The position numbers were made by a program, and so were the translations under genes. The notes beneath the pieces are model-generated. The model worked only from the letters and a program-made list of their open reading frames with translations, made no database searches and was not told where the DNA came from. From assembly GCA_013540605.1 (NCBI GenBank), contig JABVCK010000012.1, positions 1 to 63,694 of the forward strand: DNA of 63,694 nt. The letters run 5' to 3'. Positions 18,030 to 27,156 of the stretch are shown piece by piece (position 1 is the first letter of the stretch; every line of letters starts with the position of its first letter). The DNA comes from Bacillota bacterium (GTDB taxonomy: Bacteria; Bacillota; Clostridia; Ch29).

Positions 18030-19961
18030 ATCGAGTAGGAGGGGGTGATTAACCCCCGTCCTCTCAGTCGAGTAGCCCGAAGGAGTTTCACCTGCAGGCT
18101 CTCACAGAACCGTACGTGAACCTCTCGATTCATACGGCTCCTATCATTCAGCCATTAAGGAATCATTCCAAGAGCCCAATGTGGAAACATGTTGGGTTCT
18201 CTTTTTGCAAGTTCTCTCAGCCATATTTCCGCCCGTCTGCGATGGCCTCTGAATTTCTTGTATTTACACATTGCCCATTTGACCAATCGCCGATTTAAAC
18301 AGTCCATTGTGTATTTTACCGCAGATGGATTGTACTTTGTGAAGTAGTTGAGCCATCCTCTGACAAGCGGATTAATTCTTTCTGCTATCATTTCGATTTT
18401 ACTACCTGTAAGACTGTGGATTCGCATTGCTTTTATCTTGTCTCTAAAGGCTTTTGCGGACTTCTTGCTGACTGATGGCAGAAAATTGAACTGTAGCCTC
18501 CCTAGTTTATCTTTTATGAATATCCTGCGAAAGGTGTATCCTAAAAAGTCAAACTCTGTGTTCGGATACTCCTTCTTCCTGTCCTTGTCTTTGCAGTATA
18601 CAATCTTTGTTTTCATCGGGTGCAGTTCAAGCTTGCATTCGCCTAGTCGTTGATTAAGTTGCTTCAGTATTTCCTTTGCTTCCGTTTCCGTCTTGCAGTG
18701 GATTATTCCATCATCCGCATATCTCTCAAACGGTGCTTGCGGATTCGTCCGTATCATCCACATGTCAAATGCATAGTGCATAAACAGATTCGCAAGAACG
18801 GGACTAAAGGGCCACCCTGCGGGCAGCCCTCTTCCGTTTCCACCACTACTCCGTTTACCATTACTCCTGACTGGAGGAATTTGCGGATAAGGGATATCAC
18901 TCCCTTATCCTTGATGGTTTTATGGATTAGGCCCATCAGCTTGTCATGGTTTACGGTGTCAAAGTATTTGGCAAGGTCAATATCAACAGTCCAGTCGTAA
19001 CCTGCCTCTATGTATTCCTTGCATTTTAACACAGCCTGTTTTGCATCCCTTCCTGGCCTAAATCCATAGCTTCCTTCTGAAAACTGCTTCTCAAAGATGG
19101 GACTTAATACCTGGGCTACTGCCTGCTGTACCACTCTGTCCACTACTGTTGGTATGCCAAGTAGTCTTTTGCCTCCGCCCGGCTTTGGTATTTCTACCCG
19201 CCGCACAGGTTTTGGCTTATACGTACCCTCCCGGATAGACTGCCTGATTTGGTCACCATTTTCTTTTAGGTACTGTAGAAGTTCATCCACTGTCATCCCA
19301 TCAATTCCATGGCTGCCTTTGTTTGACTTAACCCTCTCGTATGCCCTGTTCATGTTGTTTCGGTCAAGTATTTTATCAAGCAGACTTCCGGCATATTCAC
19401 TGCCATCGTTTTGGTCTTTGGAAGACGTAAACGAAATACTCTGCACTCCTGCGCTGCCTTCGGGTTCCACCCTATTCTCACACAGGTAGTCTTCAATATG
19501 AAGTTGGCTGCACTCATTGCATTCCGTAGTGTACCTCAAAATCCCAAAACCATCCTTTCGTTCGGTCCTTCCCATGCCGTATATATCCGGTACGGTACTA
19601 TGACCTCTGCTGACTTCTGACAGTTCAGCCATACATCACTGCATGGGTTGTCATGGGGAAAATTCATTCCCTGCCTGACGTACCTGCCAGACCTCCCCGA
19701 TTAAGAGCAGCAACTTTCATCCCATGTCACCGCTGCATTTACACCGTGGAATTCGGGTAGTGTTGGACTTCGTTTTGTTCAGCAAACTCGTCCGTTCCAC
19801 ATATGCCTTGTATGCGTTCCTGTCCGTCGGTGCGGGACTTTGCCTGCAGCTTCCTTCAGATTTCACCTCACGGTGAACACCCTTGCTGTTTAGCTAATGG
19901 TTCCCACTACCAAGCCCATAGCGGACTTTCACCGCCTAGTTACTGCCCATGTCTGGCGAAC
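18030..19961 (-). mobile_element. Group II intron with frameshifted maturase
   Basis: Retroelement of about 1.9 kb. Domain V of the ribozyme is recognisable at 18107-18140 (minus strand), a 34-nt hairpin starting GAGCCGTATG and ending CGTACGGTTC; the domain VI hairpin (GGGGGT and ACCCCC) and a CTACTCGAT 3' end follow at about 18030. The 5' ribozyme part (19633-19961) begins near GTTCGCCAGACATGGG. The 5' end lies about 7 bp after the porB terminator hairpin, the target preference known for group IIC introns. Ends are approximate; class is not settled. Confidence 0.8.
18155..19632 (-). pseudogene. ltrA: Group II intron reverse transcriptase/maturase (frameshifted)
   Basis: Intron-encoded protein in two frames. 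The upstream part (18804-19632) has RT blocks SNKGSHGIDGMTVDEL, GTYKPKPVRRVEIPKP, YGFRPGRDAKQAV and EGCPQGGPL; the downstream part (18155-18815) continues with the catalytic FERYADDGIIHC, FLGYTFRR and the maturase domain, ending WALGMIP with no HNH endonuclease domain. Restoring one base at about 18803-18807 (CCCTTTAGTCCC should encode PLSP) joins both frames, so a single-base deletion inactivated it or the read has an error. Without repair the intron can move only with help. Confidence 0.85.
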
Positions 19962-20005: not shown

Positions 20006-20941
20006 TTACGCTTCACCGCACAGCTTAAGCAGCTTTTCCCATCTCTTGTCGACCTCTGCCTGAAGCTCCGCAATCAAATGGGCGTTATTTTTTTCAAACA
20101 GGTGCTTGAACCTGCCCTGGGGCTTCAGCCATTCTTCAATCGGAAGTTTTTCCTTGGGCTTATAGGTAAGCTTCCAATCCCCGTTCACCACTTCGTACAA
20201 TGGCCATACGCAGGTGTCGACAGCCAGTTTTGAGATTTCCAGCAGCTTGGGCGTGTCGTATCTCCAGCCCCTCGGACAGGGCGCCAGTACGTTCAGGAAC
20301 GCCGGGCCGGGTGTATAGATGGCCTTTTCCGCTTTTTCATAAAGGTCCTTCATGTTCTGGGTGATGGCGCTCTGCGCGACATATGGAATATCATGGGCGG
20401 CCATTACGGCGGCCAGGTCTTTTCTGTACTGCATCTTTCCCGGGAGTACCTTCCCCGAAGGAGACGTCGTGGTATTTGCGTACTTCGGCGTTGCCGAGGA
20501 CCTCTGTATGCCGGTGTTCATATAGGCACCGTTGTCATAGCATACGTATACCATGTCGTGGCCCCTTTCCATGGCCCCGGAAAGGGATTGTATGCCTATA
20601 TCATAGGTACCGCCGTCTCCGCCGAACGTGATGAATTTATAGTTTTCTTCAACTTTGCCTCTCTTTTTCATTGCCTTATACGCCGCTTCGGCGCCGCTGA
20701 CGGTTGCGGCAGCGTTTTCAAAGGCATTATGGACGAAGGAATCCGTCCACGCTGTATAAGGATAGATGGAAGTGGAAACCTCCAGGCATCCCGTAGCCAC
20801 TCCTACAACCGCCTTATCCTCAGGTTTGACAGCCCTTAGAATTCCTCTCACAACCGTGGGAGCTCCGCAGCCTGCACACATCCTGTGTCCTCCGGTGAGT
20901 CTGTCGGGTCTTTGCACTGCTTCCTTAAGTTTATATGCCAA
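20006..20941 (-). CDS. porB: Pyruvate:ferredoxin oxidoreductase beta subunit PorB
   Basis: TPP-binding subunit of the four-subunit enzyme that converts pyruvate and CoA to acetyl-CoA and CO2 while reducing ferredoxin. 311 residues. The N-terminal HRMCAGCGAP supplies cluster cysteines, and the TPP motif is FGGDGGTYDIG (about residue 108) with the N of CYDNGAYMNTGIQRSSATP. A further cysteine lies at NVLAPCPRGW. TTG start with AAGGAGG upstream. Last gene of porC-D-A-B. Confidence 0.93.
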   Translation of the reverse strand: MAYKLKEAVQRPDRLTGGHRMCAGCGAPTVVRGILRAVKPEDKAVVGVATGCLEVSTSIYPYTAWTDSFVHNAFENAAATVSGAEAAYKAMKKRGKVEENYKFITFGGDGGTYDIGIQSLSGAMERGHDMVYVCYDNGAYMNTGIQRSSATPKYANTTTSPSGKVLPGKMQYRKDLAAVMAAHDIPYVAQSAITQNMKDLYEKAEKAIYTPGPAFLNVLAPCPRGWRYDTPKLLEISKLAVDTCVWPLYEVVNGDWKLTYKPKEKLPIEEWLKPQGRFKHLFEKNNAHLIAELQAEVDKRWEKLLKLCGEA

Positions 20942-20954
20942 TTTTCACACCTCC

Positions 20955-22136
20955 TTATTCCCTTACACCAATGTAGTTGTATATATCCGTAACCTTGCCG
21001 CTGTCAGCTATTTTTTTCAGGTTGTTATAGACCGTTTCTATATCGTGGGTAGTAACATCCCTTCCACCGAGGCCGTAAATATAGCTGATTATATTCAGAC
21101 CGCTGTTCACGCCGTAGAGGGCGCTTCTAACCTCTGTAAATACAGGGCCCCCTGCCGTTGAAAAACTGTCGGCCTTATCCATTACAGCTACGGCTTTCAG
21201 GTGGGATAAGGCTTTGGCAATCTCCTCAAAGGGGAAGGGCCTGAATACCCTCAGTTTAAGCAGGCCGGCCTTTACGCCGTTTTCCCTCAACTGGTCCACC
21301 ACCTCTTTGGCGGTTCCCGCAGAAGAATTGAGTATTACAATTGCAACCTCGGCGTCCTCCAGCCTGTACTCTTCAAAGAAACCGTACTTCCTTCCGGTAA
21401 GCTTCTCGTATTCCTTCGCAACTTGAAGTATTACTTGCTTTGCGTTTTTCATCGCTTCGGCCTGCTGTCTCTTATGCTCGAAATAGTGGGGCGGCAGGTC
21501 CAGCGGCCCCATTGCTATGGGGTATTTTGCGTTCAACAGATACTCATCCGGTTCATACTGCCCTACAAATGCCTTTACATTTTCGGTTTCCAAAAGCTCT
21601 ATGTTCTCAACGGAATGGCTCACTATGAAGCCGTCCAGGCAGACCATTACCGGAAGCAAGACATCCTTGTTCTCAGCTATTTTCACTGCCTGGATTATAT
21701 TATCATAAGCTTCCTGGTTATCCTCCGAATACAGCTGTATCCACCCGGAGTCCCTCGCTCCCATAGAATCGCTATGGTCATTGTGTATATTTATGGGGCC
21801 GGACAGGGCTCTGTTTATTACAGGCATTACTATGGGCAGCCTGTTTGAAGCCGCTATATATAGTATCTCCCACATCAAAGCAAGACCGTTGGCTGAGGTT
21901 GCAGTCATGGCCCTGGCTCCTGCAGCGCTTGCACCAACACACGCACTCATTGCGCTGTGTTCTGATTCTACAGCTACGAACTCGGTGTCAACCTCTCCAT
22001 CCGCAACAAACTGGGAAAAATACTGCGGAACCTCCGTAGAAGGAGTTATCGGAAAGGCTGCCACTACATCAGGGTTTATCTGTTTCATAGCGGTAGCAAC
22101 CGCTTCATTACCGCTCAATCTTTCACGAATAGCCAT
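20955..22136 (-). CDS. porA: Pyruvate:ferredoxin oxidoreductase alpha subunit PorA
   Basis: 393-residue alpha subunit that forms the TPP-binding core with PorB. The N terminus has NEAVATAMKQINPDVVAAFPITPSTE (read as NEAVATAMKQ and AAFPITPSTE), then ESEHSAMSACVGASAAGAR and ATSANGLALMWE, all hallmarks of this subunit. It is followed by PorB after 13 bp and overlaps no neighbour. Confidence 0.93.
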   Translation of the reverse strand: MAIRERLSGNEAVATAMKQINPDVVAAFPITPSTEVPQYFSQFVADGEVDTEFVAVESEHSAMSACVGASAAGARAMTATSANGLALMWEILYIAASNRLPIVMPVINRALSGPINIHNDHSDSMGARDSGWIQLYSEDNQEAYDNIIQAVKIAENKDVLLPVMVCLDGFIVSHSVENIELLETENVKAFVGQYEPDEYLLNAKYPIAMGPLDLPPHYFEHKRQQAEAMKNAKQVILQVAKEYEKLTGRKYGFFEEYRLEDAEVAIVILNSSAGTAKEVVDQLRENGVKAGLLKLRVFRPFPFEEIAKALSHLKAVAVMDKADSFSTAGGPVFTEVRSALYGVNSGLNIISYIYGLGGRDVTTHDIETVYNNLKKIADSGKVTDIYNYIGVRE

Positions 22137-22152: not shown

Positions 22153-22455
22153 TTACTCTTCCTTCACAAAATCAAACACGTCAAAGGGACACGAATCCAC
22201 GCATACTCCACAGCCCTTGCAGTGTACATAATCAACTCCGGTAACTTTTCCATCAACAAGCTCGATGGATGAATCTGGACACATTAGAAAGCATACCATG
22301 CACTGCTTGCATTTTTCCGGATGGAACACCGGTTTCATAGACCGCCAAGATCCGGTCTCAAAATCCTCCGCATTACCCGCATCATATATGATTCCGCCCC
22401 TGCTTATTTCTTTCCAGCTAACGTCCTGGGTTATTGCCTTTCTTCTTTCCTTCAT
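22153..22455 (-). CDS. porD: Pyruvate:ferredoxin oxidoreductase delta subunit PorD (ferredoxin-like)
   Basis: 100-residue electron-transfer subunit with two [4Fe-4S] clusters: CKQCMVCFLMCPD at about residue 49 and CKGCGVCVDSCPFD at about 79. It passes electrons from the TPP site to external ferredoxin. Its ATG overlaps the end of porC by 4 bp. Confidence 0.92.
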   Translation of the reverse strand: MKERRKAITQDVSWKEISRGGIIYDAGNAEDFETGSWRSMKPVFHPEKCKQCMVCFLMCPDSSIELVDGKVTGVDYVHCKGCGVCVDSCPFDVFDFVKEE

Positions 22456-23030
22456 ATCCCCTTCACCTCCTGAAGAGCTCTCTTGATGGCTTTCATATTA
22501 CCCTCGATCACTTCAGCCTTCGATGCAAACTTATGCCCAAAGGATTCTCTCATGCTGTCCACAAACTCTTCCTCGCTCATGATTCCGCTAACCTTAACAA
22601 TGGCACCCAGCATGGGGGTGTTGGGAAAGTATTTGCCCAGCGTTTCCAGAGAAATAGCCATTGCGTCAATGGTATAGACCTTTCCGTTAAAACCCTGCAG
22701 CTGCTCTTTGATTTCCTCAGGGCGCTTTGATGTGTTCACCAGTATAGCCCCGCCTTCCTTAAGTCCGGCTGTCACGTCAACGTCTTTAATCAGAGATTCA
22801 TCAACAACAACAACGTAATCAGGCTCATAGATATTACTGTGTATCCTTATTTTTCTATCGGATATCCTGTTATACGCTGTGATGGGAGCACCCATCCTTT
22901 CTGGTCCATACTCCGGAAAACCTTGTATGAACTTCCCTGTGTTAAAAGCAGCTTCAGCCAGCAAAAGGGAAGCGGTTTTGGCTCCCTGTCCTCCACGGCC
23001 ATGCCAGCGAATCTCAACGGTTTTGCTCAT
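22452..23030 (-). CDS. porC: Pyruvate:ferredoxin oxidoreductase gamma subunit PorC
   Basis: CoA-binding gamma subunit, about 192 residues. The family start VEIRWHGRGGQGAKTAS is at the N terminus, followed by FPEYGPERMGAPITAYNR. The upstream frame is open to 23078 but GGGAGGAAAAAGC places the start at the ATG at 23030. First gene of the operon; a phased repeat array lies upstream at 23071-23195. Confidence 0.92.
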   Translation of the reverse strand: MSKTVEIRWHGRGGQGAKTASLLLAEAAFNTGKFIQGFPEYGPERMGAPITAYNRISDRKIRIHSNIYEPDYVVVVDESLIKDVDVTAGLKEGGAILVNTSKRPEEIKEQLQGFNGKVYTIDAMAISLETLGKYFPNTPMLGAIVKVSGIMSEEEFVDSMRESFGHKFASKAEVIEGNMKAIKRALQEVKGI

Positions 23031-23070
23031 GCTTTTTCCTCCCTTCATAACTAAACAATTTATTTTGTTA

Positions 23071-23195
23071 TATAACAACTGCGCAAAATTATAACTGTTA
23101 TACAGTAGATAGTCGCATTATGTATAACAGTTTAGCGTGACAAGTAAATATATAGTTTTCAGCATTATAACAGCGGATATAGTTAAGTATAACAG
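23071..23195 (-). promoter_or_regulatory. Phased TATAACAG array with 12-bp dyad upstream of porC
   Basis: The 8-mer TATAACA(A/G) appears on the plus strand at 23071, 23123, 23166 and 23188, and in inverted form at 23095-23102. Spacings of 52, 43 and 22 bp are near multiples of the helical repeat, so the direct copies face the same side of the DNA. AACTGTTATACA (23093-23104) and its exact complement (23121-23132) form a 12-bp dyad. This looks like an operator array for the por operon; the regulator is unknown. Confidence 0.55.
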
Positions 23196-23255
23196 AAGCC
23201 TTTATTCCTGTCAATGGACTGTATACCATTGTACAATATTAATTTCCGCTGCTAT

Positions 23256-23939
23256 TCAGCGAATAACCAGTTGTTCAAAACAGCCTTCCAGTCTACCCTC
23301 GACTATCTTGATTTCTTCAGGCCGAAAAGGGGTTAGTTTCTTTTCTCCTGCAAGCACTGTATTACTGTCTCTAAAATTCTGTATTACATATTTTTTACAG
23401 CCCTTTATCAAACAGGCAATTTTTTCTACATCTTCCACAGTCAATAGTTCCCTGCAGACGGTCGTCCTGAATTCATGCTCGACACCGGATCCCCTTATGA
23501 GTGATATGGATTTTTCTATAACACCGGCCTCTACAGGAACCCGGGTAATATTTATATATTTCCCAAGCGGAGCTTTGATATCCATCGCAATATAATCGAC
23601 AACCCCTTTATCCAGCATTTCTTCTATGACAATGGGGTTGGTGCCGTTAGTGTCCAGCTTGAACAGGAAGCCCATTTCCTTAATCCTGCCCGCAAATTCC
23701 GCCAATCCTTCATGCAGGGTCGGCTCCCCCCCGGAGATACAAACTCCGTCCAGCATTTTCTTCCTCTTTTCAAGATATTCAAAAACCTCTTCCTCACCTA
23801 TTACAGGGCCTTCGTTCCTTAATAGGTGCGAGTTATGACAGTAGGGACACCGGAGGTTGCACCCGCCCACGAAGTATACGGTGCATATCCTGTCGGGATA
23901 ATCAATAAAAGAGGACTTGACGTGACCCCTGAACTCCAT
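23256..23939 (-). CDS. nrdG: Anaerobic ribonucleotide reductase activating protein NrdG
   Basis: Radical SAM enzyme, 227 residues, that installs the glycyl radical on NrdD. The cluster motif CNLRCPYC (CxxxCxxC, about residues 27-34) follows GHVKSSFIDYPDR. The glycine-rich SAM loop CISGGEPTLH is at about residue 67. ATG with AAGGGGGG upstream. It is 44 bp behind nrdD and surely co-transcribed. Confidence 0.93.
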   Translation of the reverse strand: MEFRGHVKSSFIDYPDRICTVYFVGGCNLRCPYCHNSHLLRNEGPVIGEEEVFEYLEKRKKMLDGVCISGGEPTLHEGLAEFAGRIKEMGFLFKLDTNGTNPIVIEEMLDKGVVDYIAMDIKAPLGKYINITRVPVEAGVIEKSISLIRGSGVEHEFRTTVCRELLTVEDVEKIACLIKGCKKYVIQNFRDSNTVLAGEKKLTPFRPEEIKIVEGRLEGCFEQLVIR

Positions 23940-26448: not shown

Positions 26449-26721
26449 TTACAGCAGGTACTGCAGCGCTACGATCAGCAGCACCCCGGGAATTCCGAGG
26501 AAACCTGCAATCAATGCGGTTACAGGGTTTATTGCAACACCAAAATTAAAGTAACCTCCGATCAGATTCAGCACCCAGAGCATCAGTCCTCCGATGATGC
26601 CGTTGTATAACAGTTTGACAATGAATTTTACCGGAACGAGCAGCAGCCATCCGATTACGTATAATAAAAGCAGTCCAAAGGCATAGGCCAGTATGATATT
26701 CAGGTCAAGGCTGATTCCCAA
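26449..26721 (-). CDS. bofA: BofA-like inhibitor of pro-sigma-K processing
   Basis: Small integral membrane protein, 90 residues from the TTG at 26721 (GAGGTGA site), which fits the family length. It has two to three hydrophobic segments and the family C terminus GGYFNFGVAINPVTALIAGF (about residues 58-77) followed by LGIPGVLLIVALQ. In Bacillus BofA holds the SpoIVFB protease inactive in the forespore membrane until late sporulation. In many Firmicutes bofA follows recR and yaaL; here yaaL is adjacent but recR is 20 kb away. Confidence 0.85.
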   Translation of the reverse strand: MGISLDLNIILAYAFGLLLLYVIGWLLLVPVKFIVKLLYNGIIGGLMLWVLNLIGGYFNFGVAINPVTALIAGFLGIPGVLLIVALQYLL

Positions 26722-26877
26722 ATCCCTCACCTCTTTCAATGCAGCAAGTCCAATCAATATACATATATTATACTGCATCTTTGAATATTCATAATTTTTT
26801 CGGTCAACAAATCAGAAGGCGCCATTCCTTTGAAGAAGGTGTGTCCCCTGTCATTAAAAAACAGCGGCGCCGCTATC

Positions 26878-27156
26878 CTACAAATCCACCTTAATCCCCA
26901 TATCCTTCGCTTTTTTCAGCAGATACATGTATCTCTTTTTGCACGCTTCTATCCTAAAAATAGCATAATCCACCAGCTCCGGCTCGGATACGTTTTCAAA
27001 AAACTTTTCGGCCTCGCACCATTCCGTCATGGCTTTTTGAACGCACTCCAGCATCTCCTGGCTTTCCCTGCCGGTATCTTCGCTTTTTATACTGTTTTTT
27101 ATGCCGGAGAACCTGCCGGTTAGCTTTCCTATGTAAGTACTCAAGGCATTTTCCAC
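26878..27156 (-). CDS. yaaL: YaaL-like protein (DUF2508)
   Basis: 92 residues, largely helical. The C-terminal stretch PELVDYAIFRIEACKKRYMY then LLKKAKDMG resembles the YaaL/DUF2508 family of unknown function, encoded between recR and bofA in Bacillus and many Clostridia. Its position directly upstream of bofA supports the assignment. The N-terminal 40 residues are not conserved as far as I can tell. Confidence 0.65.
   Translation of the reverse strand: MENALSTYIGKLTGRFSGIKNSIKSEDTGRESQEMLECVQKAMTEWCEAEKFFENVSEPELVDYAIFRIEACKKRYMYLLKKAKDMGIKVDL

Follow-up and report, generated by a model that had tools for sequence, protein, structure and literature searches.

A conserved array of spaced boxes at the por promoter in several clostridial families, a candidate operator

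Described operators and the por locus

Pyruvate:ferredoxin oxidoreductase is the main gate through which pyruvate is converted to acetyl-CoA and reduced ferredoxin in anaerobes. Two kinds of described operator offer points of comparison for the locus presented here: the multi-site operators of response regulators such as ArcA or PhoB/PhoP are made of direct repeats of a short box, set at multiples of about 11 bp around the promoter, and NrdR boxes are two 16-bp palindromes 15-16 bp apart. For por itself, DAP-seq has pointed to the redox regulator Rex in Clostridium thermocellum (PMC8457756), and the same paper quotes the 18-bp Ravcheev consensus TTGTTAANNNNTTAACAA for the clostridial Rex box. 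In the open literature, which omits most subscription journals, we found no paper on a por operator other than that of Rex, and none of relevance for the sequence strings of the array described below. Control of pyruvate:ferredoxin oxidoreductase in the lineages considered here thus far appears to be undescribed, and a conserved operator with defined boxes would offer a bait for finding both the regulator and its signal.

The window, by which we mean the entire 63,694-nucleotide stretch that was analyzed, carries a porCDAB operon on the minus strand, with nrdG and nrdD upstream of it on the same strand and a terminator-like hairpin setting nrdDG apart from por (Table 1). A reading frame just downstream of porB (18754-19632, minus strand) resembles a group II intron reverse transcriptase; it ends abruptly after QGGPL and may contain a frameshift. 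A bofA gene and a DUF2508 gene are also located near por (26449-27156), and BofA-like reading frames closely precede por in a number of other families as well (flanks of L013 and L016-L018), a hint of an older gene order.

Table 1. Genes, promoter elements and boxes of the por locus (positions in the window)
Feature	Position	Strand	Basis or remark
porC, 2-oxoacid:acceptor oxidoreductase gamma subunit, first operon gene	22452..23030	-	TIGR02175, 236.9 bits, cut-off 81.1
porD, delta subunit, ferredoxin-like	22153..22455	-	TIGR02179
porA, alpha subunit	20955..22136	-	NF040682, 543 bits, just below cut-off 550
porB, beta subunit	20006..20941	-	NF008819, 359 bits, below cut-off 405
Terminator-like hairpin, end of nrdG	23245..23263	-	sequence scan
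-35 element TTGACA of por promoter	23209..23214	-	consensus match; invariant in 6/6 family members
Box 1 CTGTTATACT, right-most box and extended -10 (TATACT, 23186-23191)	23186..23195	-	10/10 columns invariant
Box 2 CTGTTATAAT, 22 bp downstream of box 1	23164..23173	-	spacing 21-23 in four other families too
Box 3 AACTGTTATACA, one arm of 12-bp dyad, 65 bp from box 1	23121..23132	-	10/12 invariant
Box 4 ATTATAACTGTTATAC, inverted copy, with palindrome TATAACTGTTATA and other dyad arm (23093-23104)	23088..23103	+	15/16 invariant
Box 5 TTGTTATATAACAA, left-most, perfect 14-bp palindrome	23065..23078	.	distance from box 1 aligns with TTGTACTAATACAG of other families

A preliminary description of this DNA had reported four direct copies of TATAACA(A/G) and a fifth, inverted copy completing an exact 12-bp dyad. 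Indeed, the direct copies start at 23071, 23123, 23166 and 23188 of the plus strand, at spacings of 52, 43 and 22 bp, and the dyad is exact (23093-23104 and 23121-23132, with 16 bp between the arms). The left-most element is a direct copy as reported, but it is really part of a perfect 14-bp palindrome that had been missed. The copies number six in total: one on the minus strand, at 23065, overlaps that at 23071, and together they make up TTGTTATATAACAA. Since porCDAB lies on the minus strand, the boxes read CTGTTATA in the direction of por; five boxes based on this sequence are located between a consensus promoter and porC, and boxes 1-3 are a good match to just one half of the palindrome. 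The TATAACAG repeats are thus real and constitute a spaced array that starts at the promoter, with the boxes as probable protein-binding sites.

Such a density of boxes had been judged unlikely to arise by chance, and resampling of the 225-bp por intergenic segment with a first-order Markov model agrees: at least four copies within 133 bp were obtained in 0 of 20000 trials, and the 12-bp dyad arose in 0.26% of 5000 resamplings. Genome-wide pattern searches counted 44 occurrences of the single CTGTTATAC against 39 for the reversed control, which is no enrichment. It is the clustering of boxes, rather than the abundance of any single box, that is unusual. Helical phasing of the copies holds in approximation only; 22, 43 and 52 bp do fall near whole 10.5-bp turns, but for the conserved +66 and +89 positions of relatives a period of 11 bp fits better than 10.5.

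Like ArcA and PhoB/PhoP operators, the array repeats a short box in direct orientation near a promoter, at distances close to multiples of 11 bp. Unlike these operators, it has spacings of 22 and 44 bp with consistent intermediate 11-bp repeats absent, it mixes direct, inverted and palindromic sites, and its target is a single operon. Similarly, four of the families described below (f4, f41, f36 and f20) resemble NrdR pairs in having two 14-bp palindromic sites with 15-16 bp between them, and the nrdDG genes upstream of por in the window's own family, f1, are a coincidental likeness to the NrdR setting. However, the sequence of the array, TGT-N2-TA-N2-ACA, looks different from the NrdR consensus, and the array belongs to por, persisting where nrd genes are not adjacent.

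Conservation of the boxes relative to the promoter

The same array precedes por in five other genomes of f1. When all six genomes are aligned, 59 of the 67 columns that make up the boxes and the -35 element show no variation, versus 16 of 106 columns elsewhere, that is, between the boxes and up to the ribosome-binding site (Fisher p=1.6e-22). To extend the comparison, 391 genomes of the class were searched for TTGACA-TGTTAYA-TGTTAYA at the right spacings, which gave 27 matches, compared to 2 for the reversed control. Of these 27, 15 immediately precede porC; f1 accounts for six of them, the Caldicoprobacter-like family f4 for five, f40 for two, and f36 and f41 for one each (families are designated by code only, and array-bearing families other than f1 and f4 are represented by one or two genomes each). 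Caldicoprobacter algeriensis (L104), a culturable species, bears the array with its boxes at the positions seen in G008. Thus four families beyond f1 have the same promoter before porC, with a second box 21-23 bp downstream of the first. The array is absent from por in many other families, for example f21, f22, f53 and f57.

Distances from box 1 are nearly constant across families, at 21-23, 65-69, 86-91 and about 116-120 bp, although f40 conforms to them in part only. The box near +66 is also found in f4, f36 and f41. Several families other than f1 carry boxes near +66, +89 and +118, of which the latter two have the form TGT-N2-TA-N2-ACA and lie about 30 bp apart; a partial array is present in f20. 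These last two sites take the shape of 14-mers with 15-16 bp between them in f4, f41, f36 and f20, and the columns without variation form a palindrome in each arm, as would be expected of an operator for a dimer. The window's box 5 matches the same form at the equivalent distance. Box 4 of f1 is inverted relative to its counterpart in f4. The relatives therefore display repeated, conserved palindromic or pseudopalindromic boxes at a fixed distance from the promoter, the pattern expected of an operator array for a dimeric regulator, and this fixed position is shared by five families. Because the repeats are retained before por in close relatives, and recur at unchanged spacing in another four families, the lack of conservation that would speak against the preliminary reading is not observed. 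As a separate observation, one f40 por leader (G044; L018 / L168) contains, amid its boxes, a 34-bp sequence, CAATATTCTGTTGTACTAGTACAACAGAATATTG, that is perfectly palindromic.

One might argue that the boxes amount to no more than a set of overlapping sigma-A promoters, with CTGTTATAAT acting as an extended -10 element (TGnTATAAT). That box 1 is a -10 element is clear: the por promoter, TTGACA-17-TATACT with TG, matches 11 of 12 consensus positions. A TATAAT ending also occurs in box 2 of the window and in boxes 3 and 4 of most f4 genomes. Yet only box 1 has the features of a sigma-A extended -10 element (TGnTATAAT with the final T, and a -35 element at 16-18 bp). Box 2, which reads CTGTTACA in the alignment of the five family relatives, and box 3 are conserved in f1 though mostly without the final T that a -10 element requires (TGTTACACA or similar for box 2 in relatives, TATACA for box 3), box 4 is inverted and box 5 palindromic, both a poor fit to promoters, and scanning towards por revealed no second good -35 element. 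We therefore regard overlapping promoters as a very unlikely explanation. The earlier proposal that the repeats are regulator sites needs amendment in one respect, in that one copy is the -10 of the promoter; the several spaced sites do suit a DNA-binding regulator with cooperating sites, and cooperative binding at the array is plausible.

Confinement to por and the relation to Rex

In the array-bearing genomes searched, por is essentially the sole site of the paired direct boxes, the inverted boxes, the 14-bp palindrome and the two-site module. Genome-wide searches of these genomes with direct, inverted and palindromic box patterns revealed no regulon, and the few matches outside por are mostly inside genes or chance-like. 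The wider role in central carbon metabolism that had been suggested initially thus finds no sign here, as paired boxes are essentially restricted to por. One match outside por (G000:C21:69892) was rejected as a terminator-like hairpin. In one relative a tandem CTGTTATACTTAT box pair stands before a 4Fe-4S ferredoxin-like gene (L053, G005:C52:5306-5336), and no other array-like pair away from por was noted ahead of a gene start; this pair, too, looks like chance. Inspection of the por neighborhoods of five relatives revealed no recognisable regulator gene, and a search of plasmid records gave no match.

Given its role in Clostridium thermocellum (PMC8457756), Rex might be thought to act here as well, with the array consisting of diverged Rex sites. 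A likeness does exist: the Rex_2471 operator of that organism is palindromic and AT-rich, has TTGTTA half-sites and lies before the por operon (PMC8457756), and the TTGTTA half-site of box 5 is identical to that of the clostridial Rex box as quoted there. Furthermore, fifteen of the sixteen array-bearing genomes encode Rex, and a Rex gene is present in G000. However, the Rex_2471 operator is one site with half-sites 6 bp apart, whereas the array has about five spaced boxes, and the half-sites, for example those of box 5, are 2 bp apart. With the consensus as quoted, no match was found in the por intergenic region (23031-23255) at up to 3 mismatches, and Rex-box scores at array loci did not exceed those at non-array loci or in shuffled sequences. 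The Rex gene is also just as common where the array is lacking (it occurs in most of the other genomes tested), and, unlike for Rex, no wider regulon was seen. Diverged Rex sites therefore appear extremely improbable as the source of the array. We offer, as a tentative possibility, that a hitherto undescribed regulator is dedicated to por, one protein for one operon, and acts in several clostridial families through about five boxes that extend from promoter to leader and have stayed at fixed distances over deep evolution, in place of the Rex control known from Clostridium thermocellum.

A DNA-binding protein or a leader RNA

We consider it moderately likely that the array is a por-specific operator array that covers the promoter and the early transcribed region and serves a putative repressor. 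The simplest reading of the sequences would be a dimeric DNA-binding protein, because the arms of the 14-mers are palindromic, the spacings are multiples of about 22 bp, and box positions are kept even where a box is inverted. Since box 1 overlaps the -10 element, repression is pointed to. We infer the following course of events. A sequence-specific protein, probably a dimer, would bind early in the transcribed region at full palindromic sites (consensus TGT-N2-TA-N2-ACA; TTGTTATATAACAA in the window). It would also occupy the CTGTTATA half-boxes, which follow one another at intervals of roughly two helical turns as far as the -10 element. With box 1 occupied, RNA polymerase would be blocked at the promoter, and the boxes further downstream could add cooperativity or a roadblock. 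Expression of por would then be repressed until a signal sensed by the regulator, perhaps pyruvate, CoA or the redox state, releases it.

The main rival to such an operator is control of por after initiation, either by a leader RNA with a defined structure or by an RNA-binding protein that recognizes the repeated CUGUUAUA, with the dyad as the stem of a hairpin. Boxes 2-5 are indeed downstream of the predicted start, within a por mRNA leader of about 150 nt, and the 12-bp dyad can fold into a hairpin; the 14-16-14 module of the f4 type pairs too (83% of cells). In folding comparisons the leaders of G008 and G002 beat their shuffles (z -3.0 and -2.6), but that of the window folds no better than its shuffles (z -0.22). 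Covariation, judged on small alignments, lends no support to a conserved stem: none of the 13 pairs of the f1 stem shows a compensatory change, in G002 this stem has an inner break, and the f4-type stem has 1 covarying pair compared to 1.0 in shuffles. Moreover, the pairing partners differ between families (boxes 3 with 4 in f1, boxes 4 with 5 in f4) while box positions are constant, and Rfam gave no credible match for the window or the related loci. RNA-based control is therefore unlikely in our estimation; it stays the main rival to the operator array because invariant pairs are uninformative either way.

A different por leader, that of f22, is structured-looking and in this respect favors the possibility of RNA-based control of por. 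Just after the promoter, the f22 leaders (L013, L014, L207 and L215) contain nested complementary blocks, AGGTAA..TGTAGG..CCTACA..TTACCT, around TGTATACTGTATAC. A consensus fold pairs these nested blocks, with two-sided changes at three pairs (four genomes only), and the f22 por leader is therein a candidate structured leader RNA.
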